Shown: positions 8,732 through 48,359 of the stretch, one piece after another | How positions within the stretch are numbered: the stretch's first letter is position 1 | How the letters are laid out: each line of letters starts with the position of its first letter | From: Rhodobacter sp. TJ_12 | GTDB lineage: Bacteria > Pseudomonadota > Alphaproteobacteria > Rhodobacterales > Rhodobacteraceae | Direction: 5' to 3' | DNA: 64,000 bases | NCBI RefSeq assembly: GCF_020023995.1 | Contig: NZ_NRRD01000004.1 | Location: 62,001-126,000 of the forward strand | The notes under the pieces: model-generated | Told to the model about the DNA's origin: nothing | Databases searched by the model: none | The model's input: the letters and a program-made list of their open reading frames with translations, nothing else | Made by a program: the position numbers and the translations under genes

Positions 8732-8932
8732 CCGCACCCCATGAAGTGGGGGCATTTCCCATTATTTTGCGGCACAGCATCCGAGAACAGCGCGTCTGAC
8801 GGCCAAAGCCCCCAGAAAGCCCCCCATTCACACCAAAACACGCTCAGGTGATTCGGTGTGAGGCTGACGGTTTTCGCCAATGTCCCGTGATTTCCCATGC
8901 CCCGCGCGCGCCCGCACCCCATGATTTCCCAT
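8732..8932. repeat. repeated TGGG-containing motifs upstream of the dcw leader
   Basis: CCGCACCCCATGA occurs at 8732-8744 and 8912-8924. TGATTTCCCAT occurs at 8888-8898 and 8922-8932, with a shorter ATTTCCCAT at 8754-8762. On the minus strand these read as ATGGGAAAT and TCATGGGGTG, i.e. TGGG-type half sites resembling those bound by MraZ in other bacteria. The 8600-9004 stretch has no supported gene. Confidence 0.5.
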
Positions 8933-9004
8933 AGCGTGTCGCCCGCCCCATCGCGGTCATGGCCGAGAAATCGCAACCGGGCCCTGCCCCGCCACGCAGC
9001 GCGC

Positions 9005-9664
9005 TCAGGGGGTGGGATCGACGGGGGCGGGATCGGAGGGCGCGGAACTGCTAGGCGCAGGATCGGTGGGCGCGGGCACGCCCCCCCACCGCACAAGCCC
9101 CATTTCCTGCGCCGCGCGCTGCGACAAAACCGGGCTGATGAGGCCGCGCTGCGCCTGATACTGGCGCACGGCCTCTTGGGTCTCGTCGCTCAACAGCCCC
9201 GTGATCGGCCCCCTGTAATAGCCCCGCGCCAACAATGCGCGTTGCAAGGTGGCAATCAGCGCAGGCGTCATCTCGGCGGCGCAGACGCGCTGAAACCACA
9301 TCTTTTCCCCACCCTCGACGATGCGCGCATGGGTGGTGGTGCGATAGCCCGCCGGGCGGGTGACCTCGCCGGTGGTTGGATCGCGTTGCTCGGGCGTGAC
9401 CAGCACATGTTCGGTGACCGTTTCCACCACGGCGGGGCGGAATTGTTCGGTGAAACAGCCCGGCGTATCGGGCCCCGGCGCCTTGGCCAGCCATTCGCCC
9501 GCAAGGGAATCTCTGGGCCCGGCGGCGACAATTTCGGGCGCGTCGTCCGGCGGCACGGGCGTGCTTTGCGGCTCGGCCATCGGCCCACAGCCCGACAAGC
9601 CCCACAGCCCGGCCCCCAAAAGCGCCGCGGGCAGAGCAGAAATGGCGAAACGAACGGACGGCAT
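9005..9664 (-). CDS. lipoprotein with a C-terminal peptidoglycan-binding domain
   Basis: 219 residues. The chosen ATG gives a clean lipoprotein signal peptide ending in LSGC (lipobox Cys about residue 26); an upstream in-frame start would bury it. A middle region of no recognised fold is followed by a peptidoglycan-binding-1-type repeat (about residues 130-175, with LQRALLARGYY and GLLSDETQEAV) and a Pro/Ser/Asp-rich tail. It is probably an envelope protein anchored in the outer membrane that contacts peptidoglycan. It ends about 700 bases upstream of mraZ. Confidence 0.85.
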   Translation of the reverse strand: MPSVRFAISALPAALLGAGLWGLSGCGPMAEPQSTPVPPDDAPEIVAAGPRDSLAGEWLAKAPGPDTPGCFTEQFRPAVVETVTEHVLVTPEQRDPTTGEVTRPAGYRTTTHARIVEGGEKMWFQRVCAAEMTPALIATLQRALLARGYYRGPITGLLSDETQEAVRQYQAQRGLISPVLSQRAAQEMGLVRWGGVPAPTDPAPSSSAPSDPAPVDPTP

Positions 9665-9666
9665 GA

Positions 9667-10167
<501 letters not shown>

Positions 10168-32156: not shown

Positions 32157-32410
32157 TGATTTTCCTCCTGTCTCCCTTGCGACAGGATGGCACAGCTCTG
32201 CACAAAATCCAGCCCCTTCGCGCGCCCCCTCCGCCAAAGTGACGGGCAGGTAACAGAATTGTTGCAATGCGCTAGGTTTCGGACAAATCTTTCCCGGTCG
32301 GTAAAATCCGGCCACCGCAGGCGCGCGCACGTTGCAAGACTGTCATGGAACGCGCCTAGGTGCTGGCTGGTGCCCATTGTGGGCCCAACCGTCCAACGGG
32401 GAGACTGAAA

Positions 32411-33508
32411 ATGAAACCGATCCACTTGCTTGCCGGGGCTGCTGCGCTTCTGGCCTCGACCGCGCTGGTGCAGGCCGAAGATATGGCCGCGCTGGAGGCG
32501 GCCGCGAAAGAAGAAGGCATGCTGACCACCATTGCGCTGCCGCACAGCTGGTGTGGCTACGGCGAGGTGATCGCGGGCTTCAAAGAGAAATATCCCGATA
32601 TCGAAGTGAACGAGTTGAACCCCGATGCGGGCTCGGCCGATGAGCTGGAAGCGATCCGCGCGAACGTCGGCAACACCGGCCCGCAAGCCCCCGATGTGAT
32701 CGATGTGGGTCTGTCCTTTGGCCCGCAAGCCAAGGAAGAAGGCCTGTTGCAGCCCTATAAAGTGGCCACGTGGGACGATATCCCCGCATCGGTGAAAGAT
32801 GCCGATGGCTATTGGTATGCCGATTATTATGGCGTGATGTCCTTCATGGTGAACAAAGACCTTGTGATGGACACGCCCACCGATTGGGGCGACCTGCTCA
32901 AGCCCGATTACGTGGGCCAAGTGGCGCTGGCCGGTGACCCGCGCGCCTCGAACCAAGCGATCTTGTCGGTGCTGGCGGCGGGCATGGCTGCGGGCGGGGC
33001 AGCGGGGCAAGAAGCCGGCGAAAAGGGCCTTGAATACTTCAAGGAAATGAACGCGAACGGCAATTTCGTGCCGGTCATCGGCAAGGCGGGCACGCTGGCG
33101 CAGGGGGCCACCCCCATCGTGGTGATGTGGGACTATAACGCCTTGGCCGCGCGCGACACGCTGGCGGGCAACCCGCCGGTCGATGTGGTCGTGCCCGACT
33201 CGGGCGTTTTGGCGGGGGTCTATGTTCAGGCGATTTCCGCCCATGCGCCGCATCCGAATGCCGCGAAACTCTGGATGGAATATCTTTATTCGGATGAAGG
33301 CCAAAACCTCTGGCTCAAAGGTTATTGCCACCCGGCGCGCTTCAACGCGATGGCCGAAGCGGGCGTGATCCCGCAAGAGCTGATCGACGCGCTGCCCCCA
33401 GCGGAAGCCTATGCCAAGGCCTATTTCCCGACGCTGGATGAGCAAGGCGCCAATAAAGACGCCGTGACCGCAGGCTGGGATGCGGTCGTGGGCGCCAACG
33501 TCCAATAA
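32411..33508 (+). CDS. ABC transporter periplasmic substrate-binding protein
   Basis: 365 residues with a Sec signal peptide (cut after about residue 22, VQA-ED) and a family 1 (PotD/FbpA-like) binding-protein fold. It leads an ABC importer of the polyamine/iron/2-aminoethylphosphonate branch. The ligand cannot be read from sequence. The ATG at 32411 follows the GGGGAGAC ribosome site. A terminator-like hairpin after the gene would make this product more abundant than the permeases. Confidence 0.9.
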   Translation: MKPIHLLAGAAALLASTALVQAEDMAALEAAAKEEGMLTTIALPHSWCGYGEVIAGFKEKYPDIEVNELNPDAGSADELEAIRANVGNTGPQAPDVIDVGLSFGPQAKEEGLLQPYKVATWDDIPASVKDADGYWYADYYGVMSFMVNKDLVMDTPTDWGDLLKPDYVGQVALAGDPRASNQAILSVLAAGMAAGGAAGQEAGEKGLEYFKEMNANGNFVPVIGKAGTLAQGATPIVVMWDYNALAARDTLAGNPPVDVVVPDSGVLAGVYVQAISAHAPHPNAAKLWMEYLYSDEGQNLWLKGYCHPARFNAMAEAGVIPQELIDALPPAEAYAKAYFPTLDEQGANKDAVTAGWDAVVGANVQ

Positions 33509-33529
33509 ACCGGGGCCCCTGCCCCATCA

Positions 33530-33560
33530 CCGCCCCTGGCCCGCGCCGGGGGCGGCTTTT
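33530..33560 (+). terminator. intra-operon attenuator after the binding-protein gene
   Basis: CCGCCCC (33530-33536) pairs with GGGGCGG (33549-33555) and is followed by CTTTT. Partial termination would reduce permease expression relative to the binding protein. Confidence 0.6.
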
Positions 33561-33579
33561 GACCAAATGGACCCCAAGC

Positions 33580-34461
33580 GTGACAGAGCATCCCCCGCCG
33601 CCCCCGCGCCCGCGCCGCAGGCTCAACCTCGCCTGGATCGGCATTTTGCCTTTTGCCGCCTTTGTCGCGCTGTTTTTGATTGCGCCAACGATGAAGATCG
33701 TGATCGGCGCGTTTCAGCGCGCCGATGGCAGCTTCACGCTGGAAAATATCTTTGGGCTGTTCACGCCGACGATCTTGTCCAGCTATTGGGTGTCGATCAA
33801 AATCTCGCTCGCCTCTTCGGCTTTGGGGTCTTTGATCGGCTTTTTGATGGCCGCGGCAATGGTGCTGGGCGGTTTGCCGCGGTTCATACGCTCGCCCCTA
33901 CTGACCTTTTCGGGCGTGGCGTCGAACTTTGCAGGCGTGCCGCTCGCCTTTGCGTTTTTGGCAACCCTTGGCCCGCTGGGTTTGGTCACCATGTGGCTGC
34001 GCACCGAATTTGGCATCAACCTGCGCGCGATGGGGTTCAATATCCTTAGTTTCTGGGGCCTGACGATCACCTATATCTTCTTTCAGATCCCCTTGATGAT
34101 CTTGATCATCACCCCCGCGCTGGATGGGCTGAAACGCGAATGGCGTGAAGCCGCGCAATGTTTGGGCGCTTCGGCCACGCAATACTGGACGCAAGTGGCG
34201 CTGCCGATCTTGGCCCCCAACATTTTGGGCACCTTCGCGCTTTTGTTTGCCAATGCGTTCGGGGCTGTGGCCACGGCCATTGCGCTGACGGGGTCAAGCC
34301 TTAACATCGTGCCGATCATGCTGTTTGCGCAAATTCGCGGCGATGTGCTGGGCAACCCACATCTGGGCTATGCGATGGCCTTTGGCATGATCTTGGTAAC
34401 AGCGCTGGCCAATGTGCTTTATATCGTGCTGCGGATGCGCTCAGAAAGGTGGCTCAAATGA
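33580..34461 (+). CDS. ABC transporter permease (first)
   Basis: About 293 residues with six membrane segments and an EAA-type loop (EWREAAQCLGAS near residue 190) that contacts the ATPase. I chose the GTG at 33580 over the TTG at 33559, which lies in the T tract of the preceding hairpin; neither has a strong SD. The stop overlaps the next start by ATGA. Confidence 0.85.
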   Translation: MTEHPPPPPRPRRRLNLAWIGILPFAAFVALFLIAPTMKIVIGAFQRADGSFTLENIFGLFTPTILSSYWVSIKISLASSALGSLIGFLMAAAMVLGGLPRFIRSPLLTFSGVASNFAGVPLAFAFLATLGPLGLVTMWLRTEFGINLRAMGFNILSFWGLTITYIFFQIPLMILIITPALDGLKREWREAAQCLGASATQYWTQVALPILAPNILGTFALLFANAFGAVATAIALTGSSLNIVPIMLFAQIRGDVLGNPHLGYAMAFGMILVTALANVLYIVLRMRSERWLK

Positions 34462-35240
34462 AACGCGCCGCCGCTTGGTCGATCCTTCTGGTCGGCATGA
34501 TCTATTTCATCCTGCCGCTGGTGGGCATGGTCGAATTCTCGCTTTCGATGAAACGCGGTATCTATAGTTTCGAAGCGTATCGCGTTGTTTTTGCCGATCC
34601 GCAATTTCGCCAGACCTTCTCTTACTCGGTGATGATGGCGGTGCTGACGATCCTCTTTGGCGTGCTTTTGGTGGTGCCCACGGCGTTTTGGGTGCGGCTC
34701 AAGCTGCCGGGGCTGCGCCCCTATGTGGAATTCGTCACGCTATTGCCGCTGGTGATCCCTGCCATCGTCGTCGTCTTTGGCTATATCCGGCTTTACAACA
34801 CCTCTAGCTGGTTGCCGATGACCGGCTCTGTCACCGGCACCAACCTGTTGCTGCTCTTTGGCTATTCGATGCTGAGCCTGCCTTATATGTATCGCGCCAT
34901 CGACACCGGGCTGCGCACGATTGATGTGGCCACGCTGACCGAGGCCGCGCAATCGCTCGGCGCGGGCTGGTTCACGATCTTGGCGAAAATCATCATGCCA
35001 AATGTTTTGGTGGCGGTGCTTTCCGGCGCGTTCGTCACCTTTGCCATCGTGATGGGGGAATTCACGCTTGCCGCGCTTTTGGACCGGCCCGCCTTTGGCC
35101 CCTATTTGCAGCTTATGGGCGCGAACAAGGCCTATGAGCCCTTTGCCCTATCCACCATCGCTTTCATCATCACTTGGGCCTGTATGGGGCTGATTCAGCT
35201 CGTGACCCGGCTCACCAAACACGACAAGGCCGCCCGATGA
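34458..35240 (+). CDS. ABC transporter permease (second)
   Basis: 260 residues with six membrane segments. The EAA loop is TLTEAAQSLGAGWF. The ATG at 34458 has AAAGGTGG upstream and overlaps the stop of the first permease, and its own stop overlaps the ATPase start, so assembly is coupled. Confidence 0.9.
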   Translation: MKRAAAWSILLVGMIYFILPLVGMVEFSLSMKRGIYSFEAYRVVFADPQFRQTFSYSVMMAVLTILFGVLLVVPTAFWVRLKLPGLRPYVEFVTLLPLVIPAIVVVFGYIRLYNTSSWLPMTGSVTGTNLLLLFGYSMLSLPYMYRAIDTGLRTIDVATLTEAAQSLGAGWFTILAKIIMPNVLVAVLSGAFVTFAIVMGEFTLAALLDRPAFGPYLQLMGANKAYEPFALSTIAFIITWACMGLIQLVTRLTKHDKAAR

Positions 35241-36283
35241 GCTATCTCACGCTATCGCATCTGGAAAAAAGCTTCGGCCCGGCGCGGGTGGTGAAGGATT
35301 TCAACCTGACCGTGGACCAAGGCGAGTTCATCTCGCTTTTGGGGCCCTCTGGCTGCGGCAAGACCACGGTTTTGCGCATGGTGGCGGGGTTTGAACTGCC
35401 CACCGCCGGCGGCATCACGATCGAGGGGCGGGACGTGACCCGGCTCAAACCCAACCAGCGCAATATCGGCATGGTGTTTCAGGCCTATGCGCTGTTTCCC
35501 AACCTGACGGTCGCGCAAAACGTGGGTTTTGGGCTGAAGGTGCAAGGCGCGCCCAAGGCCTCGATCAAGCCGCGGGTGGCGGAAATGCTATCGCTGATTG
35601 GCCTTTCCGACCTTGGCAACCGCTACCCGTTCCAACTTTCGGGCGGGCAGCAGCAGCGGGTGGCCTTGGCGCGTGCGCTTGCCCCCAAACCCTCGGTGCT
35701 GCTTCTGGATGAGCCGCTTTCCGCGCTGGATGCCAAGGTGCGGGTCAGCCTGCGCAATGAAATCCGCCAAATTCAGCGCGAATTGGGCATCACCACGATT
35801 TTTGTCACCCATGACCAAGAAGAGGCGCTCTCGATGTCGGACCGGGTGGTGGTGATGCATGAAGGCATTGCCGATCAGGTCGGCACGCCCTTTGACATCT
35901 ACAACCGCCCCGCGACCCGGTTTGTGGCGGGCTTTGTCGGCACGCTGAACACGCTGGAAGCCAAAGTGCTGGATGCGGCGGCTGGCAAGGTGACGCTTGG
36001 CGGGACCGAAATCACCCTGCCCGCCCCCTTGCCTGCGGGCCCCACCGTCACGCTGGGCCTGCGCCCCGAAGCGATCCGGCTTAGCGCGGCAACGGGCCCG
36101 CAGCTTCGCGCCACGATCAAGGATGTGGATTTTCTGGGATCAGTGATCCGGCTGCGCGCCGATCTGGCGGGGCAGCCGATCGCCTTTGACACGTTCAACA
36201 CCACGCGGGTCGCCCCGCCCAAAGTGGGCGAGACGGTCGCGCTGGGGCTGGATACGGCGGATCTTTTGGTGATCGGCGCTTAG
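35237..36283 (+). CDS. ABC transporter ATP-binding protein (PotA-like)
   Basis: 348 residues. Walker A is GPSGCGKTT, the signature is LSGGQQQR, Walker B is [11 protein letters not shown] and the switch His is in VTHDQEE. A C-terminal TOBE domain (about 270-345) is present as in polyamine, iron and maltose importer ATPases. Last gene of the importer operon. Confidence 0.95.
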
Positions 36284-36605: not shown

Positions 36606-37469
36606 TTATTTCCGGCCCCGAAAGAAACGCGCACGCTCATAAAGCTCTTCAAGCCGCTGCATCCTTGCCGATGTGGTCTCCCATGTCAGCGCCTGCACGG
36701 CGGCCATCAAGGTTTCCACGATCAACTGGATCGCCACGGTGCTATCCCACGCGCTTGGCACCTCCACCTGCGCGGACAGACGAATGCGCGCATGCGCGGC
36801 GGCGGGGCTGACCCAAGGATCGGTGATTAAGATCACCTCCGCCCCCTGTTCAGCGGCCATTTCCACCAGTTGTAAAACGGCGTTTTCATAGCGGCGAATG
36901 TCAAAAACCAGCAAAACATCGCCCTGCCCAATCTCCAAAAGCGCGGGCGGCCAGGCGTTTGACACCGGCATCAACAGTTCCACATCCGGGCGGATCACCT
37001 TCATATGGGCGACGAAATATTCCGCCATCGCCAGCGTGATCCGGCCCCCGGTGGCAAAAATCTTGCGCGCCGGATCGGCCAACAACGCTGCCGCCGCATC
37101 GAAATCGGCCTGTTCGATCTGCGACAGCGTGGTATGAAGATTGGCCATCACCGCATCGGCGAAACGGTTCAGCACATGCCCCTCGGGCGCTTGCGCGGCC
37201 CAAAGATCATGCTTGGCCAAAGGGCCGACAAGGCGCGATTCGAGTTCATCGCGCACCGCCGCTTGCAGCCCCGCATAGCCGCCATAGCCCATTTTTTGGG
37301 CCAGCCGCACCACGGTGGGCGAGCTAACGTCAGCCCCGCGCGCCAGCTGCGTCACCGAGCCCAAAAGCGCCAGCGGATATTGGCGCAGGATGTGACTGGC
37401 CAATTGTCGCTCGGCCCGCGTCATCGTGGCGATCGCCGCGCGCAATTCTTCTTCGATGGTTCGTTTCAT
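36606..37469 (-). CDS. MurR/RpiR family transcriptional regulator
   Basis: 287 residues: an N-terminal HTH-6 domain (about 1-75, with LARGADVSSPTVVRLAQKMG as recognition region) and a C-terminal SIS domain (about 125-265), which in this family binds phosphosugars or similar effectors. The ATG at 37469 fits family length. It is divergent from the amidohydrolase-TRAP operon across 160 bases and is the obvious local regulator. Confidence 0.92.
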   Translation of the reverse strand: MKRTIEEELRAAIATMTRAERQLASHILRQYPLALLGSVTQLARGADVSSPTVVRLAQKMGYGGYAGLQAAVRDELESRLVGPLAKHDLWAAQAPEGHVLNRFADAVMANLHTTLSQIEQADFDAAAALLADPARKIFATGGRITLAMAEYFVAHMKVIRPDVELLMPVSNAWPPALLEIGQGDVLLVFDIRRYENAVLQLVEMAAEQGAEVILITDPWVSPAAAHARIRLSAQVEVPSAWDSTVAIQLIVETLMAAVQALTWETTSARMQRLEELYERARFFRGRK

Positions 37470-37629
37470 TGCCGCCAAAATGGGCACTCCTTGCTGCGCG
37501 AGCCATGCCGCACCGCCGAACAGATTGTAACAGAAATATTCCGCCTGAAATGATGTTGACAGTTTCCGCGCCCCGGTCAAGCCTGCAAGAGGAGATCGAA
37601 GAATCGACGCGGAGCACGGGGAGCGACGG

Positions 37630-38400
37630 GTGGAAGATCAGCTGCAAGGCGCGGTCGTCATCGAAAGACGCGCGGCTCAGGGGCCGTTTGTTTTCGTTTG
37701 CGAACATGCGGTGAATGCCTTTCCCGCGCCATGGGGCGATCTGGGCCTCAGCAGCGAGGTGCAATCGGCGCATGTGGCGTGGGACCCGGGCGCGCTGGGG
37801 CTGGCGCGCGGCTTGGCCGAACGGCTCGACGCCCCCTTGGTGCGCGCCACCACCTCGCGGCTGATCTATGACCTCAACCGCCCGCCGCAGTCGCCCGGCG
37901 CGATGCCCGCGCGCTCCGAAATCTTTGACATTCCCGGCAATGCCGCGCTGGACCCGGCCCAGCGCCTGACGCGCACACAAGCGCTTTATCTGCCATTTCA
38001 TGCGCAATTGCGCACACTTTTGGCCGAAAAGCTGGCACTGGGGCAGCGCCCTATCCTTGTCACAGTGCATTCTTTTACGCCGGTCTATCATGGCCGCCCG
38101 CGCGCGGTCGAATTGGGCATCATCCATGATGCAGACCCGAGCCTTGCCTGCGCCGTGCTGGAAGAGGCGCGCGCGCAAACCCCGCTCGATGCGCGGCTGA
38201 ATGATCCCTATAGTGCCGCAGATGAGGTGACCCATACGCTGGCGCTGCACGCCACGCCGATGGGGCTGCGCAATGTGATGCTCGAATTGCGCAATGACCT
38301 GATCGCCGATGCGCTCGCACAAGCGGCCATGGCCGCGCGTCTGGCCCCGGTTCTGCTGGCCGCGCTGGCCCGCCTCGACAAACCGCTGGAGGTCGTGTGA
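37630..38400 (+). CDS. N-formylglutamate amidohydrolase-like protein
   Basis: 256 residues of the HutG/N-formylglutamate deformylase family: FVCEHAVNAFP near residue 22 with metal-binding Glu/His, a DLNRPP motif and VTVHSFTPV near residue 138. The usual substrate is N-formylglutamate from histidine, but no hut gene is near. The neighbours suggest it cleaves another N-acyl or gamma-glutamyl amide. GTG start; TTGACA at 37556-37561 may be the -35. The stop overlaps dctQ (TGATG). Confidence 0.85.
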   Translation: MEDQLQGAVVIERRAAQGPFVFVCEHAVNAFPAPWGDLGLSSEVQSAHVAWDPGALGLARGLAERLDAPLVRATTSRLIYDLNRPPQSPGAMPARSEIFDIPGNAALDPAQRLTRTQALYLPFHAQLRTLLAEKLALGQRPILVTVHSFTPVYHGRPRAVELGIIHDADPSLACAVLEEARAQTPLDARLNDPYSAADEVTHTLALHATPMGLRNVMLELRNDLIADALAQAAMAARLAPVLLAALARLDKPLEVV

Positions 38401-38906
38401 TGCCGCGCTTTCTTGTCGCCTATGTCCATGCCGTCGAGGCGGTGAACCGCAAGCTTGGCCGCATCGCCATGTATCTGCTGTTTGTGATGATGGGGATCAT
38501 GGTCTGGTCGATGATCACCAAATTCGCCCATATCCCCGCGCTGTGGACGCTGGAAATGGCGCAGTTCACGCTGGTCGCCTATTACATGCTGGGCGCGCCG
38601 TGGACCATGCAATCCGAGGTGAACGTGCGCATGGATCTGATCTATGCGCGCTTTTCTCACAAGGGCAAAGCGCTGACCGATGCGCTGACGGTCTTCTTCT
38701 TGATGACCTATCTGGCCATCATGCTTTATGGCGCGTTTGACAGCACCGTTTATTCCTACACTTACAACGAGCGAAACCCGACCGCGTGGCGGCCGGTGCT
38801 TTGGCCGCTTAAGACCATCATCACCTTCAGTTTCGCTTTGATGCTGCTGCAAGCCACAGCACTTCTGATCCGCGACATTGCCACTTTGCGCGGGGAGAAG
38901 ATCTGA
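38400..38906 (+). CDS. TRAP transporter small membrane subunit DctQ
   Basis: 168 residues with four membrane segments, the usual DctQ size and topology. It forms the membrane complex with DctM. The start ATG shares bases with the amidohydrolase stop, and the stop shares bases with the dctM ATG. Confidence 0.9.
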   Translation: MPRFLVAYVHAVEAVNRKLGRIAMYLLFVMMGIMVWSMITKFAHIPALWTLEMAQFTLVAYYMLGAPWTMQSEVNVRMDLIYARFSHKGKALTDALTVFFLMTYLAIMLYGAFDSTVYSYTYNERNPTAWRPVLWPLKTIITFSFALMLLQATALLIRDIATLRGEKI

Positions 38907-40231
38907 TGGATCACAATACCATCGCCCTTTTGATGTTTTCCTCGCTGATGCTGATGATGCTCACCGGGCAGCGCGTCTTTGGCGCGATTGGCTTTGTTGC
39001 GGTGATTGCGGCGCTGACGCTTTGGGGGCCGGGCGGCACCGATATGGGCTTTTCCGCCGTGATGAAGCTGATGAAATGGACCCCGCTGCTGACGCTGCCG
39101 ATGTTCGTTTTCATGGGCTATGTGATGAGCGAAAGCCGCTTGGCCGAAGACCTGTATCGGATGTTTCACGTCTGGTTCGGCCCGCTGCCGGGTGGGCTCG
39201 CCATTGGCACGATTTTGTTGATGGTGCTGATTTCGGCGATGAACGGGCTGTCGGTCGCGGGCATGGCGATTGGGGCCACGATCGCGCTGCCCGAACTGGT
39301 GCGGCGCAACTATGACAAGCTGATGATTTCGGGCGTCATTCAGGCGGGCTCCAGCCTTGGCATTTTGATCCCGCCCTCGGTCGTGCTGGTGCTGTTTGCA
39401 CTGATTGCACGCCAGCCCGTTTCCAACCTGTGGCTGGCGGGCATTGGGCCGGGGCTTTTGATGGCGGTGATGTTCATCGCCTATATCACCATCCGCACTT
39501 GGCTGAACCCGAAGCTGGCCCCGCGCATGAGCGCCGAGGAACGCGCCAGCATCCCGCGGGCCGAGAAATACAAGCTTCTGCGCGCAGGGCTTTTGCCGGT
39601 TTTCATCTTTGCCGCGATGATGGTGCCCTTCATCAACGGCTGGGCCAGCCTGACCGAGGCCTCGGTCGTGGGCGTTGGTGCCACGGTTTTGGTCGCCGCC
39701 CTCAAGCGCCGCCTGACTTGGCGCGTCTTCGAAACCGCCACCAAGCAAACGCTGCATATCACGGTGATGTTCATGCTGATCATCACGGCGGCGCTGTCCT
39801 TTGGCGCGGTGTTCGATGGCTTGGGCGCGGGCCGCGCGATCCAGACCTTCTTCACCTCGGATCTGGGGCTCGCGCCTTGGATGATCTTGGTGCTGATGCA
39901 GCTCAGCTTTCTGGTGCTTGGCATGTTCTTGGACGATACCGCGATGCTGGTGATCGTCGCCCCGGTTTTCGTGGGGCTGGCCAAAGCGCTTGGCTTCGAT
40001 CTGATCTGGTATGGCGTGCTTTATACCATCACCTGCCAAATCGCCTATCTGACGCCGCCCTTCGGCTATAACCTGTTCTTGATGAAGGCGCTGGCGCCCC
40101 CCGATTTTACGCTGCCCGTGATCTATCGCTCGGTGCTGCCTTTCGTGTTGGTGATGGTTCTGACCTTGGTTTTGATCATGGTGTTTCCGCAAATTGCGCT
40201 TTGGCTGCCGCAAACGGTTCTGGGGCGCTGA
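38906..40231 (+). CDS. TRAP transporter large membrane subunit DctM
   Basis: 441 residues, about 12 membrane segments. The substrate/sodium-channel subunit is recognised by SAMNGLSVAGMAIGAT, GSSLGILIPPSVVLVL and the C-terminal TPPFGYNLFLMK. It drives solute uptake with a sodium gradient. Coupled to dctQ. Confidence 0.95.
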   Translation: MDHNTIALLMFSSLMLMMLTGQRVFGAIGFVAVIAALTLWGPGGTDMGFSAVMKLMKWTPLLTLPMFVFMGYVMSESRLAEDLYRMFHVWFGPLPGGLAIGTILLMVLISAMNGLSVAGMAIGATIALPELVRRNYDKLMISGVIQAGSSLGILIPPSVVLVLFALIARQPVSNLWLAGIGPGLLMAVMFIAYITIRTWLNPKLAPRMSAEERASIPRAEKYKLLRAGLLPVFIFAAMMVPFINGWASLTEASVVGVGATVLVAALKRRLTWRVFETATKQTLHITVMFMLIITAALSFGAVFDGLGAGRAIQTFFTSDLGLAPWMILVLMQLSFLVLGMFLDDTAMLVIVAPVFVGLAKALGFDLIWYGVLYTITCQIAYLTPPFGYNLFLMKALAPPDFTLPVIYRSVLPFVLVMVLTLVLIMVFPQIALWLPQTVLGR

Positions 40232-40276
40232 CGAACAACGACCCCGAATGGGGCATCCCACAACAAGGAGAGAGAA

Positions 40277-41314
40277 ATGACGACGACGAGACGGAAGTTT
40301 CTGACCACCGGTGCCGTGGGTGCCGCCGCCGCCGCAGGGCTTGCCGCCCCGGCGCGCGCGCAAGACACGATCAAATGGCGGCTGCAAACCTATGCAGGCC
40401 CGGCGCTGGCCGAAGAGGTGGTGAAACCCGCGATCGAGGCGTTCAACACCATCGCCAATGGCCAAATGGAGATCGAGCTTTACACCTCGGACCAGTTGGT
40501 GCCGACGGGCGAATTGTTCCGCGCCATGCAAAACGGCACCATCGATGCCGTGCAATCGGATGATGACTCTATGGCCTCTCCCACCGAGGTGACGGTGTTT
40601 GGCGGCTATTATCCCTTTGCGCTGCGCTATTCGCTCGATGTGCCTGCGCTTTTCAATTCCTGGGGGTTGAAGGAAATCTGGGAAGAAGAATACGCCAAGG
40701 TGGGCATCAAGCACATCTCGGCGGGGTCGTGGGACCCGTGCCATTTCAATATGAAAGAGCCGGTCAACTCGCTTGAGGATCTGCGCGGCAAACGCGTCTT
40801 CACCTTCCCAACCGCCGGGCGCTTCCTCGCGCAATTCGGCGTCATTCCGGTGACGATCCCGTGGGAAGATGTGGAAGTTGCGTTGCAAACCGGCGAGCTT
40901 GATGGCCTTGCGTGGTCGGGCATCACCGAAGATTACACCTCGGGCTGGTCGAAAGTGGCGCCCTACTTCCTGACCAACAACATCTCGGGCGCTTGGATTG
41001 GCCACTTCTTCGCGAATATGGAGCGCTGGAACGCCGTTCCCGCCCACCTGCAGCAGCTTTTGCAAACCTGCTTCGACCAATCGCATTATCGCCGCCAATG
41101 GTGGTATTGGGCGGGCGAAGCCAAGCTGCGCGTCGAAGGCGAGGATATGAAGCTGACCTCGCTGCCGCCGGAAGATTATGCCAAGCTCGAAGAGGCCGCG
41201 CATAAATTCTGGGATGAAATCGCCGCCGAAAGCCCGCTGAAGGCCAAGGTCGTCGAGATCATCCGCAAATATAACGACACGATGGTGAAGGCTGGCGCGC
41301 CTTACCGCAGCTAA
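40277..41314 (+). CDS. TRAP transporter substrate-binding protein DctP
   Basis: 345 residues. A twin-arginine signal (TRRKFLTTGAVG) ends at APARAQ, so it is exported folded. The DctP fold includes an Arg/Asn-bearing region around LRGKRVFTFPTAGRF. Some Tat-exported TRAP proteins bind 2-keto acids or amino acid derivatives, but the ligand here is unknown. A stable hairpin follows the gene. Confidence 0.93.
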   Translation: MTTTRRKFLTTGAVGAAAAAGLAAPARAQDTIKWRLQTYAGPALAEEVVKPAIEAFNTIANGQMEIELYTSDQLVPTGELFRAMQNGTIDAVQSDDDSMASPTEVTVFGGYYPFALRYSLDVPALFNSWGLKEIWEEEYAKVGIKHISAGSWDPCHFNMKEPVNSLEDLRGKRVFTFPTAGRFLAQFGVIPVTIPWEDVEVALQTGELDGLAWSGITEDYTSGWSKVAPYFLTNNISGAWIGHFFANMERWNAVPAHLQQLLQTCFDQSHYRRQWWYWAGEAKLRVEGEDMKLTSLPPEDYAKLEEAAHKFWDEIAAESPLKAKVVEIIRKYNDTMVKAGAPYRS

Positions 41315-41321
41315 TCGGTTC

Positions 41322-41343
41322 GGGCCGGGGACTGCCCCGGCCC
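41322..41343 (+). other. stable intercistronic hairpin after dctP
   Basis: A perfect 9-bp GC stem (41322-41330 with 41335-41343), loop ACTG, no T tract. Such hairpins often protect the upstream message, keeping the binding protein abundant. Confidence 0.6.
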
Positions 41344-41397
41344 AAGCCCCAACGGCCTGCGCGCGGCGGGACAACCGCGCCACTAGTGGAGGAAATC

Positions 41398-42759
41398 ATG
41401 CCCGCAAACCTGACCTTCGAGACGCTGAAAACAGCCGTTGCCAGCGGCGAGATCGACACGGTGATCGCCTGCATTTGCGACATGCAGGGCCGGTTGCAGG
41501 GCAAACGCTTCCATGCGCAGCATTTCATCGACAGCGCTTGGGAAGAAACCCATTGCTGCAACTATCTGCTGGCCACCGATATGGAGATGGTCACGGTGGA
41601 GGGCTATGAAGCCTCTAGCTGGCGGCGCGGCTATGGCGATTATGTCATGAAGCCTGATCTTGACACGCTGCGCCGCATCCCGTGGGTGGATGGTACGGCG
41701 CTGGTGATGTGCGATGTGCTGGACCATCACACCCATGATCCCGTGCCGCATGCGCCGCGTTCGGTGCTAAAGCGCCAGATCGACCGCGCCAAGGCGATGG
41801 GCTTTGACGTGATGATGGCGACCGAGCTTGAGTTTTTCTTGTTCGAGCAAAGCTATCCCGATCTGTTTGACGCGGGCTATCCGATCCCCACCCCGATGGC
41901 GCGTTACAATGTCGATTATTCGCTGATGGGCACCGCACGTGACGAGCCGATCATGCGCGACATCCGCAATTTCCTTTATGGCGCGGGCATTCCGGTCGAA
42001 TGTTCGAAGGGCGAGGCCGAATGCGGCCAAGAAGAGATCAACGCGAAATATTCGCACGCGCTTGATACCGCCGATATGCACACGCTGATCAAGCAAGGGG
42101 TGAAGGAAATCGCCCAGCAACACGGCGCCTCGGCCACCTTCATGGCGAAATACCATACCGACAAGGCGGGCTCGTCAAGCCACGTGCACCAATCTTTGTG
42201 GCAAGACGGCGCGAATGCGTTCTACGACCCCGAAGCCGAATATGGGATGAGCGCGTTGATGCGCCATTTTCTTGCCGGTCAGCTAGAATTTTCGCGCGAT
42301 ATCAGCTATTTCTTGGCGCCTTATGTGAACAGCTACAAGCGCTTCTGTGTCGGGTTGTTTGCGCCGACGAAAGCCGTCTGGTCGCTGGACAATCGCACCG
42401 CAGGCTACCGGATCTGCGGCGAGGGCACCAAGGGCGTGCGCGTCGAATGCCGCATCGGCGGCGCCGATCTGAACCCCTATTTGGCGTGTGCGGCGCTGTT
42501 GGCGGCGGGGCTTGAAGGCGTCGTAAACAAGCTTGATCCGGGCGCGCCGATTTCGGGCGATCTTTATCATGCCGAAGCGCCCGAAGTGCCCAAAACCCTG
42601 ACCGAGGCCGCCGAAGCGCTGGAAAATTCGGATTTCCTCAAACGCACCTTCGGCGAAGAGGTGGTGGCGCATTATGTCCGCGCCGCGCAGTGGGAAATCG
42701 AAGAAAGCCAGCGCGTCGTGACCGATTGGGAACGCCAGCGCGGGTTTGAACGCGCCTAA
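41398..42759 (+). CDS. glutamine synthetase-like gamma-glutamyl ligase
   Basis: 453 residues with a glutamine synthetase catalytic domain. ATELEFFLFEQ and ECGQEEINAKY carry metal-binding Glu residues, SSHVHQSLW the catalytic His, and a Tyr-rich NSYKRF stretch precedes the Arg-rich TAGYRI. It belongs to the PuuA/GlnA-like group that joins glutamate to amines, not to the short GlnA of nitrogen assimilation. Its setting in a transporter/dehydrogenase operon supports an amine substrate. GGAGG precedes the ATG. Confidence 0.88.
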   Translation: MPANLTFETLKTAVASGEIDTVIACICDMQGRLQGKRFHAQHFIDSAWEETHCCNYLLATDMEMVTVEGYEASSWRRGYGDYVMKPDLDTLRRIPWVDGTALVMCDVLDHHTHDPVPHAPRSVLKRQIDRAKAMGFDVMMATELEFFLFEQSYPDLFDAGYPIPTPMARYNVDYSLMGTARDEPIMRDIRNFLYGAGIPVECSKGEAECGQEEINAKYSHALDTADMHTLIKQGVKEIAQQHGASATFMAKYHTDKAGSSSHVHQSLWQDGANAFYDPEAEYGMSALMRHFLAGQLEFSRDISYFLAPYVNSYKRFCVGLFAPTKAVWSLDNRTAGYRICGEGTKGVRVECRIGGADLNPYLACAALLAAGLEGVVNKLDPGAPISGDLYHAEAPEVPKTLTEAAEALENSDFLKRTFGEEVVAHYVRAAQWEIEESQRVVTDWERQRGFERA

Positions 42760-42805
42760 CAAAACAGTTTTACGGGGCCGAAGGGGCCACGAGAGGAAGG
42801 TCGAC

Positions 42806-44194
42806 ATGACGAAGATGATCCAGTGTATCTCGCCGGTGGATGGGCGGGTCTATGCCGAGCGGCCGGCCCTAAGCCTGCCCGATGCAGAAGAAATGGCCGC
42901 ACGCGCCCGCGCTGCGCAGCCCGCATGGGCCGCGCGCCCGCTGGAAGAGCGCATCGCGCTGGTGCAAGCCGGTGTGGCCAAGCTCAACGAGATGAAAGAC
43001 CGCGTGGTTGAAGAACTGGCGTGGCAAATGGGCCGCCCCACCCGCTTTGGCGGTGAATTTGGCGGCGTGAATGACCGCGCCAATTACATGGCCGAGATCG
43101 CCGCCGAAACGCTGGCCCCCAAAGTGGTGGAAGACAGCGCCAATTTCCGCCGCTATCTGGCGCGCGAGCCGGTGGGCGTGGTGTTCATCATTGCGCCGTG
43201 GAACTACCCCTATCTGACCACGATCAACACGCTCGCCCCGGCGTTGATTGCGGGCAATACGGTCGTGCTGAAACACGCCACGCAAACCATGCTGGTGGGC
43301 GAACGGCTGGCTGAGGCCTTCCACGCGGCGGGCGTGCCCGAAGATGTGTTCCAAAACGTCTATCTGACCCATGACGTGACCGAAGCGCTGATCGGCCAGC
43401 GTGCGTTCAACTTCATCAACTTCACCGGCTCGGTGAATGGCGGCGCCACGATCGAGCGCGCGGCGGCGGGCACCTTTACCGCTGTGGGGCTGGAGCTGGG
43501 CGGCAAAGACCCGGGCTATGTGATGGCCGACGCCGATCTTGATGCCGCGGTCGATGGCCTGATGGATGGCGCAATGTTCAACGCGGGCCAATGCTGCTGC
43601 GGGATTGAGCGGATCTATGTGCACGAAAGCCTGTATGACGCCTTTGTTGAAAAGGCCGTGGCTTGGGTGAAAAATCTCAAACTGGGCAACCCGTTTGAAC
43701 CCGAAAGCACGCTTGGCCCGATGGCGAACAAGCGCTTTGCCCATATCGTGCGCGAACAAATCGCTGAGGCCGTGGCCGAAGGTGCAGAGGCGCTCATTGA
43801 CCCGGCGCTTTTCCCGGCCGATGACGGCGGCGCTTACCTCGCCCCGCAGATTTTGGTGAATGTGAACCACGAAATGCGGGTGATGCGCGAAGAAAGCTTT
43901 GGCCCCGTGGTCGGCATCATGTCGGTAAAAGACGATGAAGAAGCCATCGCCGCGATGAACGACAGCCCCTATGGGCTGACCTGCTCGATCTGGACTGCCG
44001 ATCCCGACAAAGCCGCCGAAATTGGCGCGCGGATCGAGACCGGCACCGTCTTCATGAACCGCTGCGACTACCTTGACCCGGCTTTGTGCTGGACCGGCTG
44101 CAAAGACACCGGGCGCGGCACGGCCCTGTCGGCGCTTGGCTATTACTCGGTCACACGGCCAAAATCCTACCATCTCAAGAAGGTGACGAAATGA
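42806..44194 (+). CDS. NAD(P)-dependent aldehyde dehydrogenase
   Basis: 462 residues. Catalytic residues are visible: PWNYP (Asn about 133), LELGGK with Glu230 and GQCCCG with the nucleophile Cys264 (Cys263 and Cys265 flank it). The C-terminal half has the usual EESFGPV motif. It would oxidise the aldehyde made by the adjacent alcohol dehydrogenase. Its stop overlaps that gene by ATGA. Confidence 0.95.
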   Translation: MTKMIQCISPVDGRVYAERPALSLPDAEEMAARARAAQPAWAARPLEERIALVQAGVAKLNEMKDRVVEELAWQMGRPTRFGGEFGGVNDRANYMAEIAAETLAPKVVEDSANFRRYLAREPVGVVFIIAPWNYPYLTTINTLAPALIAGNTVVLKHATQTMLVGERLAEAFHAAGVPEDVFQNVYLTHDVTEALIGQRAFNFINFTGSVNGGATIERAAAGTFTAVGLELGGKDPGYVMADADLDAAVDGLMDGAMFNAGQCCCGIERIYVHESLYDAFVEKAVAWVKNLKLGNPFEPESTLGPMANKRFAHIVREQIAEAVAEGAEALIDPALFPADDGGAYLAPQILVNVNHEMRVMREESFGPVVGIMSVKDDEEAIAAMNDSPYGLTCSIWTADPDKAAEIGARIETGTVFMNRCDYLDPALCWTGCKDTGRGTALSALGYYSVTRPKSYHLKKVTK

Positions 44195-45345
44195 GCGTTC
44201 CGAGCATGAACTGGGGCTATCCCACGCCGATCAAATTCGGCCCCGGGCGGATCAAGGAATTGGCCGAGCATTGCAAGGCCGTGGGCATGACCAAGCCGCT
44301 TTTGGTGACCGACAAGGCGCTGTCGAGCCTGCCGATCACGGCGGATGCGCTGGATGTGCTGGCCAAAGCGGGCCTTGGCCGCGCGATGTTTTGCGAGGTG
44401 GACCCGAACCCGACCGAAGCCAATATGAAAGACGGCATTGCCGTTTACAAAGCGGGCGGGCATGATGGCGTTGTCTGCTTTGGCGGTGGCTCGGCGCTGG
44501 ATCTTGGCAAAATGATCGCGCTGATGGCAGATCAGCCTGAAACGCTCAGCGTGTGGGAATTGGAAGATATCGGCGATTGGTGGACCCGTGCCGATGGCGA
44601 AAAAATCGCCCCGATCATAGCAGTGCCCACCACGGCGGGCACGGGCTCCGAAGTGGGCCGCGCGGGCGTTTTGACCAATTCCGACACGCATAAGAAAAAG
44701 ATCATCTTCCACCCGAAGCTGATGCCCGCCATCACCATTTGCGACCCGGAACTGACCGTGGGCATGCCCGCGTTCATCACCGCGGGCACTGGCATGGATG
44801 CGCTGGCGCATTGCCTTGAGGCCTATTGCAGCCCGCATTATCACCCGATGAGCCAAGGCATTGCGCTTGAAGGGATGCGGCTTGTGTTTGAAAACCTGCC
44901 CAAGGTCTATGCCACACCGACCGACCTTGAAGGCCGCGCGCATATGATGAGCGCGGCGGCAATGGGGGCGGTGGCCTTCCAAAAGGGTCTGGGTGCGATC
45001 CATTCGCTCTCCCACCCCGTGGGCGCGGTTTATGGCACGCACCACGGCACCACCAATGCCTGCGTGATGCCGATGGTGCTGGATTACAACCGTTCGGCGA
45101 TTGAGGCGCGGATCGAAAAAGCCGCCGCCTATCTTGGCATTGACGGCGGGTTTGACGGCTTCCGCGCCGCCATTGTGGCGCTGCGCAAGGAACTGAGCAT
45201 CCCCCAAACGCTCACCGAGATGGGCGTGAAAGAGGAAGACCTCGATATGCTCACCGAAATGGCGCTGGAAGACCCGTCCTGCGGCGGCAACCCGATTGAA
45301 ATGACGCGCGAAAATACCCGCGCGCTGTTCGCAGCCTGCCTCTAA
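44191..45345 (+). CDS. iron-containing alcohol dehydrogenase
   Basis: 384 residues of the group III (iron) ADH family. The nucleotide site is FGGGSALDLGKM. Metal ligands lie in GMDALAHCLEAY and in the His-rich GAIHSLSHPVGAVYGTHH. Coupled to the aldehyde dehydrogenase and last gene of the operon, so an alcohol is probably oxidised in two steps to the acid. Confidence 0.94.
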   Translation: MSVPSMNWGYPTPIKFGPGRIKELAEHCKAVGMTKPLLVTDKALSSLPITADALDVLAKAGLGRAMFCEVDPNPTEANMKDGIAVYKAGGHDGVVCFGGGSALDLGKMIALMADQPETLSVWELEDIGDWWTRADGEKIAPIIAVPTTAGTGSEVGRAGVLTNSDTHKKKIIFHPKLMPAITICDPELTVGMPAFITAGTGMDALAHCLEAYCSPHYHPMSQGIALEGMRLVFENLPKVYATPTDLEGRAHMMSAAAMGAVAFQKGLGAIHSLSHPVGAVYGTHHGTTNACVMPMVLDYNRSAIEARIEKAAAYLGIDGGFDGFRAAIVALRKELSIPQTLTEMGVKEEDLDMLTEMALEDPSCGGNPIEMTRENTRALFAACL

Positions 45346-45504
45346 GCGCGCCCGCTTGCCCAACCCGGCGGCGGTTGTGCGCCGCCGGGATTTTGAACTG
45401 GTGTTTTCCTGCCATGGCGGGCCAAAACTGGCTTGCTGTGACGTGTTTCATCTCGTCTCTGCGGTGAAATTGGGTATAACGGCCCAAAGACTTCGGAGGA
45501 CCGC

Positions 45505-47673
45505 GTGTTTTTTGCCCACCCGACCCGGCCCGTGACGGCCCGTAACCGCCTTCGGGCCGTGCTTCTTGGCGCCTCGGCGCTTGCCGTCGCCGCGCCTGTT
45601 TTGGCGGAACCGCTGACCGGGTGGAGCCGCAACACCTATGGCATGCCGGGTCTGGTTGACCTGCCCACCGCCGAGGTGCGCCCCGATGGCGAGCTTGGCT
45701 TTTCCGTCACAGGCATGGGCGATGGCACGTTCCGCAACACGCTGACCTTTCAGATCGCGCCGCAGCTGACCGGCGCCTTTCGCTATTCGCGCGTGCCGGG
45801 GCTCAACCCGGTCGAAGATGACATCACCGGCCTGCCCACCGGCGCCTATGAGGCGCTTTTCGATCGCTCGTTCGATATCCGGTGGCAATTTCTGGAAGAG
45901 GGACGCTACCGCCCCGCCCTCGCCATCGGTCTGAACGATTTCATCGGCACCGGCGTCTATTCCTCGGAATATATCGTCGCCACCAAGACCTTTGGCGAGC
46001 GGCTGCGGCTCAGCGGCGGGCTTGGCTGGGGGCGGCTAGGCTCCTTTGGCTCGATCGCTTCCATGGGCGACCGCCCGGCATATGATTACGGCTCCAACGG
46101 CGGGCAGTTGAACGGCAAGACATGGTTCCGGGGCGATGTCGCACCGTTCTTTGGGCTGGCTTGGGCGATGAACGACCGGGTGACGCTGAAGGCGGAATAT
46201 TCCTCGGATGCCTATGCGCAAGAAACCACCTTGGGCGATTGGACCCGCCGCAGTTCGATGAACTTCGGGGTGGATTACGCGCTCAACGACGTGTCGAAGC
46301 TGCAACTGTTCGTGCTGCATGGCGACAAGGTGGGCTTTCAATTCTCGCGCGCGATCAACCCGAAAGCGCCGCCCTTCCCCTCGGGGATCGAACGCGCACC
46401 GCTGCCAGTGCGCCCGCGCCCGCCGCGCGGCGCCGATATTGCCGGCTGGTCGGGCGCATGGAGCGCCGATCCGACCGCACAGCCCGCGATTCAGGGCGCA
46501 CTGGCCGATGCGCTGGCCAAGGACGGGCAAATCCTTGAATCGATGGCGCTCAGCGCCACGCGCGCCGAATTGCGCGTGCGCAACGAAACCTATGCCGCCC
46601 AGCCGCAAGCGCTCGGCCATGTGGCCCGCGCGGCAACCCGCGCCCTGCCCCCTTCGGTGGAAACGATCACCGTCACCTCGATGCGCAAGGGCATGGCGGT
46701 TTCTTCCGTGACCTTCCGCCGTTCGGATCTGGAGCGGCTGGAAAACACCGCCGCTGCGGAAATTCTGGCCACGACCACGATCACCGAAGCCGATGCAGAG
46801 GCCGCTTTGGTGCCCACGGCAGGGCTTTATCCGCGCTTTCGCTGGAGCCTGACGCCCTATGCCGAAGCCTCGATCTTCGACCCGGACAATCCGTTCCGCG
46901 TGGATCTGGGCGCGCAGCTTGCAGGCCGGTTCGAGATTGCGCCGGGGCTGATCGTGTCGGGCGCCGTGCGCCAAAAGCTCGTGGGCAATCTGGATGACAG
47001 CACTCGGGTGTCGGATTCGATTGCCCAGCATGTGCGCTCTGACTTGGCCGAATATCAAAAGCATGGCGATCTGGCGCTGCGGAACCTGCAATTGGCTTGG
47101 TATGCCCAACCGGGCCGCAACCTGTATTCGCGGGTGACGGTCGGCTATCTGGAACGGATGTATGGCGGCGTTTCGGGCGAGCTTTTGTGGAAGCCCGTCG
47201 ACAGTCGGCTGGCGCTTGGGGTCGAGGCGAACTGGGTCAAGCAACGCGACTTTGACCAGCATTTCGGCTTCCAAGATTATTCGGTCGCCACCGGGCATGC
47301 CTCCGCCTATTACGATTTTGGCGGCGGCTATGTCGGCGCGTTGGATGTCGGCCGCTATTTGGCCAAGGATTGGGGCGCGACCGTCGCGCTGGACCGGACC
47401 TTTGAAAACGGCTGGAAAGTGGGAGCTTTTGCCACTTTCACCGATATGTCGAATGCCGAATTTGGCGAAGGCTCGTTTGACAAGGGGATCCGCATCTCGA
47501 TCCCGGTGGTCTGGACCACGGGCAAACCCTCGGTCAACACGCTGTCGACCACGATCCGCTCCTTGCAGCGCGATGGCGGGGCCCGGCTGGATGTCGAGGG
47601 GCGGCTTTATGAAACCGTCGATGCGGCGCAGATGGGGACGCTTTACGATCAATGGGGAAGGTTCTGGCGATGA
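45505..47673 (+). CDS. YjbH-family outer-membrane polysaccharide-export protein
   Basis: 722 residues with a signal peptide (cut about residue 34, VLA-EP) and a beta-rich body. The N-terminal NTYGMPGLVDLPTAEV and EGRYRPALAIGLNDFIGTG segments are typical of YjbH, a partner of group 4 capsule/Yjb exopolysaccharide export. GTG start with GGAGGA upstream. Coupled by ATGA to a YjbF-like lipoprotein gene. Confidence 0.9.
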   Translation: MFFAHPTRPVTARNRLRAVLLGASALAVAAPVLAEPLTGWSRNTYGMPGLVDLPTAEVRPDGELGFSVTGMGDGTFRNTLTFQIAPQLTGAFRYSRVPGLNPVEDDITGLPTGAYEALFDRSFDIRWQFLEEGRYRPALAIGLNDFIGTGVYSSEYIVATKTFGERLRLSGGLGWGRLGSFGSIASMGDRPAYDYGSNGGQLNGKTWFRGDVAPFFGLAWAMNDRVTLKAEYSSDAYAQETTLGDWTRRSSMNFGVDYALNDVSKLQLFVLHGDKVGFQFSRAINPKAPPFPSGIERAPLPVRPRPPRGADIAGWSGAWSADPTAQPAIQGALADALAKDGQILESMALSATRAELRVRNETYAAQPQALGHVARAATRALPPSVETITVTSMRKGMAVSSVTFRRSDLERLENTAAAEILATTTITEADAEAALVPTAGLYPRFRWSLTPYAEASIFDPDNPFRVDLGAQLAGRFEIAPGLIVSGAVRQKLVGNLDDSTRVSDSIAQHVRSDLAEYQKHGDLALRNLQLAWYAQPGRNLYSRVTVGYLERMYGGVSGELLWKPVDSRLALGVEANWVKQRDFDQHFGFQDYSVATGHASAYYDFGGGYVGALDVGRYLAKDWGATVALDRTFENGWKVGAFATFTDMSNAEFGEGSFDKGIRISIPVVWTTGKPSVNTLSTTIRSLQRDGGARLDVEGRLYETVDAAQMGTLYDQWGRFWR

Positions 47674-48359
47674 AACGCAGGCCTCGTGCGGCGTTGGTCG
47701 CCGCTGCGCTGGCCTTGGCGCTGGTGGGCTGCGGCAACGATACGACACAGCTTGAAACCGGTCGCCAAGCGATGAGCGAATTGTTCGGCAAATTGCGCGC
47801 CAAGCGCGCCGCCGCAAAAGCCGGCCCCGCCTTGGATGCAGAGGCGATTGCCCGCAGCGGCATGGCCTCCAACCCCGGACCGGTGCTGATCGCCACGCTG
47901 GAAACGAACAAATCCACCTCTATCTTCGCGCAGCGCGGCCAGAACGGCACGATGCGCACTTGGCTGTCACCCTCGGGGCAGGCGGTGATCACCCGCAACG
48001 GGCTTTTGGTCGGCACCCGCGGCTTTGGCCATGACCTTATGTCTGCCGATACCAGCGCGCTTTCGGCCAAGCTGCGCGCGCGCAGCCCCGGTCAGGCGGC
48101 AATCGAATTGCGCTACCTCGACGGGCTGGGGATCGAACGCCCGTTGCCACTGACCTGCACCGTGATCCTTGGTGAGGCGGTAAGCTACAGCTTTGCCGAT
48201 ATCGACTTTTCCGGCTTGCAGATGGCCGCGCGGTGCGAAGGTCACGGCTTTGCCTTTGACGCAAGCTATATCGTCTCGGACGGGGGCGAGATCCTGTCCT
48301 CGCGGCAATGGATCGGCCAGCATCTGGGCTATCTGACCATTCAGACGCTGCGCAACTAA
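47670..48359 (+). CDS. YjbF/GfcB-family lipoprotein
   Basis: 229 residues. The lipobox is LVGC at about residue 20, and the mature part is a beta-rich domain as in YjbF/GfcB. The pair yjbH-yjbF recalls the E. coli yjbEFGH operon, but no yjbG is here. A terminator hairpin follows. Confidence 0.85.
   Translation: MKRRPRAALVAAALALALVGCGNDTTQLETGRQAMSELFGKLRAKRAAAKAGPALDAEAIARSGMASNPGPVLIATLETNKSTSIFAQRGQNGTMRTWLSPSGQAVITRNGLLVGTRGFGHDLMSADTSALSAKLRARSPGQAAIELRYLDGLGIERPLPLTCTVILGEAVSYSFADIDFSGLQMAARCEGHGFAFDASYIVSDGGEILSSRQWIGQHLGYLTIQTLRN

Follow-up and report, generated by a model that had tools for sequence, protein, structure and literature searches.

A run of eight genes at positions 36606-45345 of the window (the 64,000-nucleotide stretch of Rhodobacter sp. 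TJ_12 contig NZ_NRRD01000004.1 analyzed here, from a genome of 3.58 Mb in 114 contigs) is very probably an ethanolamine gamma-glutamylation operon of the etoVWX type. An operon of this kind has already been published in a marine relative, Phaeobacter sp. MED193 (PMC10132767), hence it is not new. The original prediction, made from the sequence alone, had put the cluster forward as a new candidate route, and this part of it therefore falls away. Ethanolamine is the most likely substrate, turned via gamma-glutamyl intermediates into glycine and glutamate, because of the match to the MED193 genes, the similarity of the TRAP binding protein (DctP), the conservation of the cluster and a link between the transporter and ethanolamine ammonia-lyase (EutBC) in other bacteria.

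The region is spanned by eight complete open frames, each belonging to a named Pfam family (Table 1). The regulatory gene rpiR is located on the minus strand and diverges from the seven plus-strand genes, which occupy 37630-45345. The ATG at 37469 was chosen as the rpiR start; the frame considered previously opens at TTG 37580. Pfam confirmed all the families named in the original prediction, i.e. an RpiR regulator followed by amidohydrolase, TRAP transporter, glutamine synthetase (GS)-like ligase, aldehyde dehydrogenase and iron alcohol dehydrogenase genes. The overlaps it had noted at several junctions are present at three of the six operon junctions (TGATG at 38398-38402 and 38904-38908, ATGA at 44191-44194), and the remaining three junctions are gaps of 45, 83 and 46 bases.

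Table 1. Coordinates of the genes and putative control elements in the window, and of one comparison locus (last line).
Feature	Position	Strand	Basis
rpiR, MurR/RpiR-family regulator	36606-37469	-	Pfam HTH_6 + SIS
ggaH, FGase-family amidohydrolase, probable gamma-glutamylglycine amidohydrolase	37630-38400	+	Pfam FGase, 136 bits
etoV, TRAP small permease (DctQ)	38400-38906	+	Pfam DctQ; TGATG overlap
etoW, TRAP large permease (DctM)	38906-40231	+	Pfam DctM; TGATG overlap
etoX, TRAP solute-binding protein (DctP), ethanolamine-binding type	40277-41314	+	PDB 4uab/4xf5, 560 bits
GS-like ligase, probable gamma-glutamylethanolamide synthetase	41398-42759	+	Pfam Gln-synt_C; nearest solved 5dm3, 11zs
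Aldehyde dehydrogenase, probable gamma-glutamyl-aminoacetaldehyde dehydrogenase	42806-44194	+	Pfam Aldedh
Iron-type alcohol dehydrogenase, probable gamma-glutamylethanolamide dehydrogenase	44191-45345	+	Pfam Fe-ADH + ADH_Fe_C; ATGA overlap
Conserved promoter-region stretch (GAACAGATTGTAACAG ... TGAAATGATGTTGACA), perhaps operator and -35 box	37518-37561	+	Conservation in rpiR-ggaH gaps
Strong hairpin without T run, between etoX and ligase gene	41317-41348	+	-27.6 kcal/mol, z -4.0
Terminator-like hairpin, 10-bp stem + ATTTT, between operon and yjbH	45364-45394	+	-25.1 kcal/mol, z -4.7
Changed-signature example locus	L119 1821-5858 (minus) and 8745-9794		

In the proposed pathway the TRAP transporter would import ethanolamine and the GS-like ligase would couple it to glutamate, with ATP being spent. 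The alcohol end would then be oxidised by the iron alcohol dehydrogenase and subsequently by the aldehyde dehydrogenase, giving gamma-glutamylglycine, which the FGase-family amidohydrolase would split into glycine and glutamate. RpiR would govern the divergent promoter, with relief presumably brought about by ethanolamine or an early intermediate. We infer the reaction of each enzyme, the signal of RpiR, the inducer and co-transcription. The protect-oxidise-release route of the original prediction is the same as that proposed in PMC10132767 and, for Streptomyces GlnA4, in PMC6529630, and its choice of an amino alcohol such as ethanolamine agrees with what has been proposed in print for an operon with these gene types in this order. 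Ethanolamine of phospholipid head groups is described as a nitrogen and carbon source (PMC10132767), and routes of the glutamylation type are said to bypass an acetaldehyde by-product (PMC6529630).

The published operon, MED193_10021-10056, is listed as RpiR (MED193_10021), GGAH, EtoV, EtoW, EtoX, ETAGA, GAADDH and GETADH (PMC10132767). The eight gene types, their order and the proposed pathway are identical in the window. According to the same paper, MED193 EtoX bound ethanolamine with a Kd of 7.9 uM and did not bind PE, PC, G1P or G3P (designations of the source), and five proteins, namely GGAH, EtoX and three pathway enzymes, were up on phosphorylethanolamine.

The EtoX protein of the window scored 86 bits against the next solved TRAP protein after 4uab/4xf5, compared with 560 bits for these two. 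We take PDB entries 4uab and 5dm3 to be Csal_0678 and Csal_0679. Judged by its sequence the window protein is of the ethanolamine-binding type, the ligand being that given for Csal_0678 in PMC10132767.

Among solved structures the ligase was nearest to 5dm3 (613 bits) and 11zs (569 bits), and no other solved glutamine synthetase scored above 200 bits. Its Gln-synt_C domain covers the catalytic region, as would be expected if it were an ordinary ammonia-assimilating glutamine synthetase standing beside a TRAP transporter by chance. However, the protein falls below the cut-offs of both the type I GlnA model TIGR00653 (268 vs 429 bits) and the type III glutamate-ammonia ligase model TIGR03105 (255 vs 470 bits), the genome holds three further GS-like genes, and the dehydrogenases are kept alongside in 55 of the 81 loci described below; we give this explanation hardly any weight. 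A polyamine operon of the Puu type would have in common the protect-oxidise-release logic and a ligase of the GS superfamily. Such an assignment appears exceedingly improbable, since the ligase scored only 218 bits where the PuuA model NF045547 (NCBIfam) requires 650, the transporter is a TRAP system of the ethanolamine-binding type, and none of the eight genes encodes a PuuB-type flavin amine oxidase by Pfam, the last point having already been made in the original prediction.

The other catabolic enzymes were less specifically placed by family models. The sole solved match of the amidohydrolase was 2odf ('Hypothetical protein Atu2144'). No NCBIfam model matched it at E 0.001, including that of HutG N-formylglutamate deformylase, and it is therefore not recognised there as HutG; the earlier description of a 'HutG-like amidohydrolase' holds for the Pfam FGase family and not for the HutG identity. 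For the aldehyde dehydrogenase the cut-off was reached by none of the NCBIfam matches listed (25 of 44), and for the iron alcohol dehydrogenase by none of 15 NCBIfam models.

Conservation was analyzed in 100 loci, designated by L or G numbers: 80 named loci (the best 80 of 138 confirmed relatives) and 20 family loci hand-picked from 87 matching genomes (19 with etoX at 56-64% identity, plus G148). Since the loci were selected, and some came from the same or near-identical organisms (e.g. L068/L069, L079/L080), counts over them are not even samples. Of the named etoX matches, those from Rhodobacter aestuarii (97%) and R. maris (96%) were the closest, in a comparison from which the genome of the window itself may have been excluded. 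Enough flank was available in 81 loci, and 19 were dropped. Of these, 55 have all seven other genes at a distance of at most 7.5 kb from etoX, which argues that the grouping is beyond chance. In these 55 loci rpiR is near etoX, and it is divergent in those whose gene order was inspected. Within the same distance, the rest comprised 15 loci with only etoV and etoW, three without ggaH alone, three without rpiR and ggaH, two without rpiR, ggaH and a close ligase, and three other partial sets. More broadly, etoX was detected in 87 of 149 genomes of the family (E 1e-60), and the ligase in 31 of 289 genomes of the class (E 1e-120) and in 35 of 72,556 plasmid records (E 1e-100).

Further evidence came from the partners of the transporter. 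The large subunit of ethanolamine ammonia-lyase, EutB, was sought in 35 chosen genomes. It exceeded the cut-off in seven of 21 genomes without a close ligase seen beside etoX, and in none of 14 genomes with a ligase-type operon (12 with a close ligase and two, L111 and L113, with a distant one). In five loci etoVWX adjoins eutB and eutC, which stand in place of the glutamylation enzymes: L064 (11118-13402), L068, L069, L087 (5314-7550, minus strand) and L088. From their record titles we take these five to be gammaproteobacteria. Pfam identified the EutC of L064 and L087, and that of the remaining three was recognised by its similarity to the L064 protein. Two more genomes (L047, L117) contain EutB, with none found in the etoX locus examined. 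Six of the 21 genomes, which were grouped as transporter-only, have short flanks at etoX (L097, L110, L117, L118, L122, L130), so genes farther out are unseen. Sixteen of the 21 were searched with the ligase: eight have an orthologue at another place (identity 55-64%, with a partial match in one case), four others have EutB, four have neither, and none has both. As the genomes are mutually related, these EutB and ligase counts are not independent. EutBC and the glutamylation enzymes share little except that they start from ethanolamine, and their association with the same transporter thus supports ethanolamine as its cargo, independently of the other evidence on the substrate. One literature search for ethanolamine ammonia-lyase together with TRAP transporters gave a single paper, on Halomonas ectoine clusters, and this is not enough ground for regarding the link as unpublished.

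These data bear on whether the operon serves other amino alcohols, for example 1-amino-2-propanol, alaninol or 3-aminopropanol, with ethanolamine being one of several. Such ligases and dehydrogenases can be broad, and routes of the Ipu (isopropylamine) type take related compounds. This alternative is nevertheless unlikely given that EtoX has the closest solved matches among ethanolamine-binding proteins and that its relatives adjoin ethanolamine ammonia-lyase. In addition, MED193 EtoX did not bind the four phosphorylated compounds, although the available text of PMC10132767 names no other amino alcohol among the ligands tested.

The EtoX-like proteins of 11 of the 38 loci compared (L115, L117, L118, L119, L121, L122, L123, L124, L126, L129, L130) form a subclade with a changed signature (SD[ED]ATM, VFGVPTAG, VAWCGFTEAY). 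A DAO/Fer2_BFD flavoprotein, a pyridine-nucleotide oxidoreductase and an FGGY kinase are encoded near eight of these 11 and near none of the 27 others, and the changed-signature proteins may carry another substrate. A speculative reading, which we hold to be less likely than not, is that TRAP transporters of the etoVWX type act as a portable module and combine with three or more partner sets: the glutamylation enzymes, the EutBC lyase (in some gammaproteobacteria), and the flavoprotein, oxidoreductase and FGGY kinase set, which would act on another small alcohol or amino alcohol. The third set is weakened because in three of the 11 loci (L115, L126, L129) the glutamylation ligase, too, is encoded next to the transporter. 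The window belongs to the glutamylation-partner kind, which is already known.

Several observations weigh against gamma-glutamylation of ethanolamine by a conserved eight-gene operon. The ggaH gene alone is missing in L038 and L044 (both Rhodobacter capsulatus) and in L103, and L101, which had been dropped for its short flank, likewise keeps the other genes without it; the genomes of these four hold only FGase relatives of 38-44% identity. Both rpiR and ggaH are missing in L115, L120 and L126. Two Sinirhodobacter species (L041, L043) keep only the transporter, without rpiR and the catabolic genes there, and a search of their genomes found neither a ligase orthologue nor a full EutB; both are likewise missing from G004 and G159. 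In two Pseudomonas loci, L111 (11136-12587) and L113, the place of the ligase is taken by a GS-like protein of only 32-34% identity. As to the precedent, phosphate lack alone also raised MED193 EtoX (Table 2 of PMC10132767), the legend to Fig. 5 of that paper labels the pathways as predicted, and the likeness of MED193 to the window was set by comparing gene types with the published gene list. The available text of PMC10132767 gives no assay of the catabolic enzymes, and the enzyme functions in the window are likewise predicted.

The intergenic regions of the cluster contain putative control elements. Among 64 rpiR-ggaH gaps, including that of the window, TTGACAG occurs in 37 and TGTAACA in 31. 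The conserved stretch containing them is perhaps an operator and a -35 box; a simple promoter scan of the window did not report it. An RpiR operator in the form of an inverted repeat was considered and rejected, as none was common to the gaps and the commonest exact dyads with 6-base arms occurred in only two of the 64. For each of the two hairpins in Table 1, none of 200 shuffles was equally stable, and neither was listed by a simple terminator scan of the window. The hairpin between etoX and the ligase gene is a candidate element that perhaps sets the amounts of binding protein versus enzymes.

Upstream of rpiR, at 32360-36283, lies an ABC transporter of the 2-aminoethylphosphonate/iron/polyamine kind. 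It scored under the cut-offs of the 2-aminoethylphosphonate models (ATPase 425.5 vs 457.7 bits, binding protein 62.2 vs 310 bits). Ten of the 81 loci have a gene resembling that of its binding protein close to etoX; their record titles place them all in Rhodobacter, Sinirhodobacter, Sedimentimonas, Defluviimonas or Thioclava. Among 149 family genomes the binding protein was present in 21 (E 1e-80). In four of these (G000, G046, G114, G135) it is separated from etoX by no more than about 10 kb, and in the other 17, some of them without an etoX match, it is located elsewhere. On these counts the ABC transporter was rejected as a part of the system. In L057 and L058 it is located downstream of the operon. 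Its surroundings in 16 loci and the window contained no neighbour cluster common to three or more loci beyond its own four genes and overlapping frames. On the other side, the operon is followed at 45505-48359 by exopolysaccharide genes of the YjbH and YjbF type; 18 of the 81 loci have a YjbH gene close to etoX. In L041 (8099-12146) and L043 etoVWX is placed between outer neighbours like those of the window, the ABC transporter and yjbH. In L111 and L113 the distant GS-like gene adjoins etoVWX and the aldehyde and alcohol dehydrogenase genes.

Ethanolamine gamma-glutamylation has several precedents. The Puu (putrescine) and Ipu routes also proceed by gamma-glutamyl protection, oxidation and release, with other substrates and oxidising enzymes. 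The comparison with them in the original prediction is apt as an analogy, the ligase of the window lying far under the PuuA cut-off. The ethanolamine pathway of Chromohalobacter salexigens is reportedly due to Vetting et al. 2015. The DctP and ligase of the window are closest to the solved 4uab and 5dm3, both of which we presume to be Chromohalobacter proteins. That pathway likewise combines a glutamylation route with an ethanolamine-binding TRAP protein, Csal_0678; its genes have been 'demonstrated to function' according to PMC10132767, and it was predicted in silico according to PMC6529630. The GlnA4 pathway of Streptomyces coelicolor (PMC6529630) resembles that of the window in its gamma-glutamylethanolamide synthetase, its aldehyde dehydrogenase, a predicted enzyme of the formylglutamate amidohydrolase type and the end products glycine and glutamate. 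It differs in that a short-chain dehydrogenase and no iron alcohol dehydrogenase is listed in the available text, the regulator is etuRI and the transporter is a 'putative ethanolamine transporter'. A review sums up these ethanolamine routes (PMC9397018). Compared with the MED193 operon, that of the window is from another genome, of a Rhodobacter/Sinirhodobacter relative, where its function is predicted, and it extends a route known from marine bacteria to a Rhodobacter relative.

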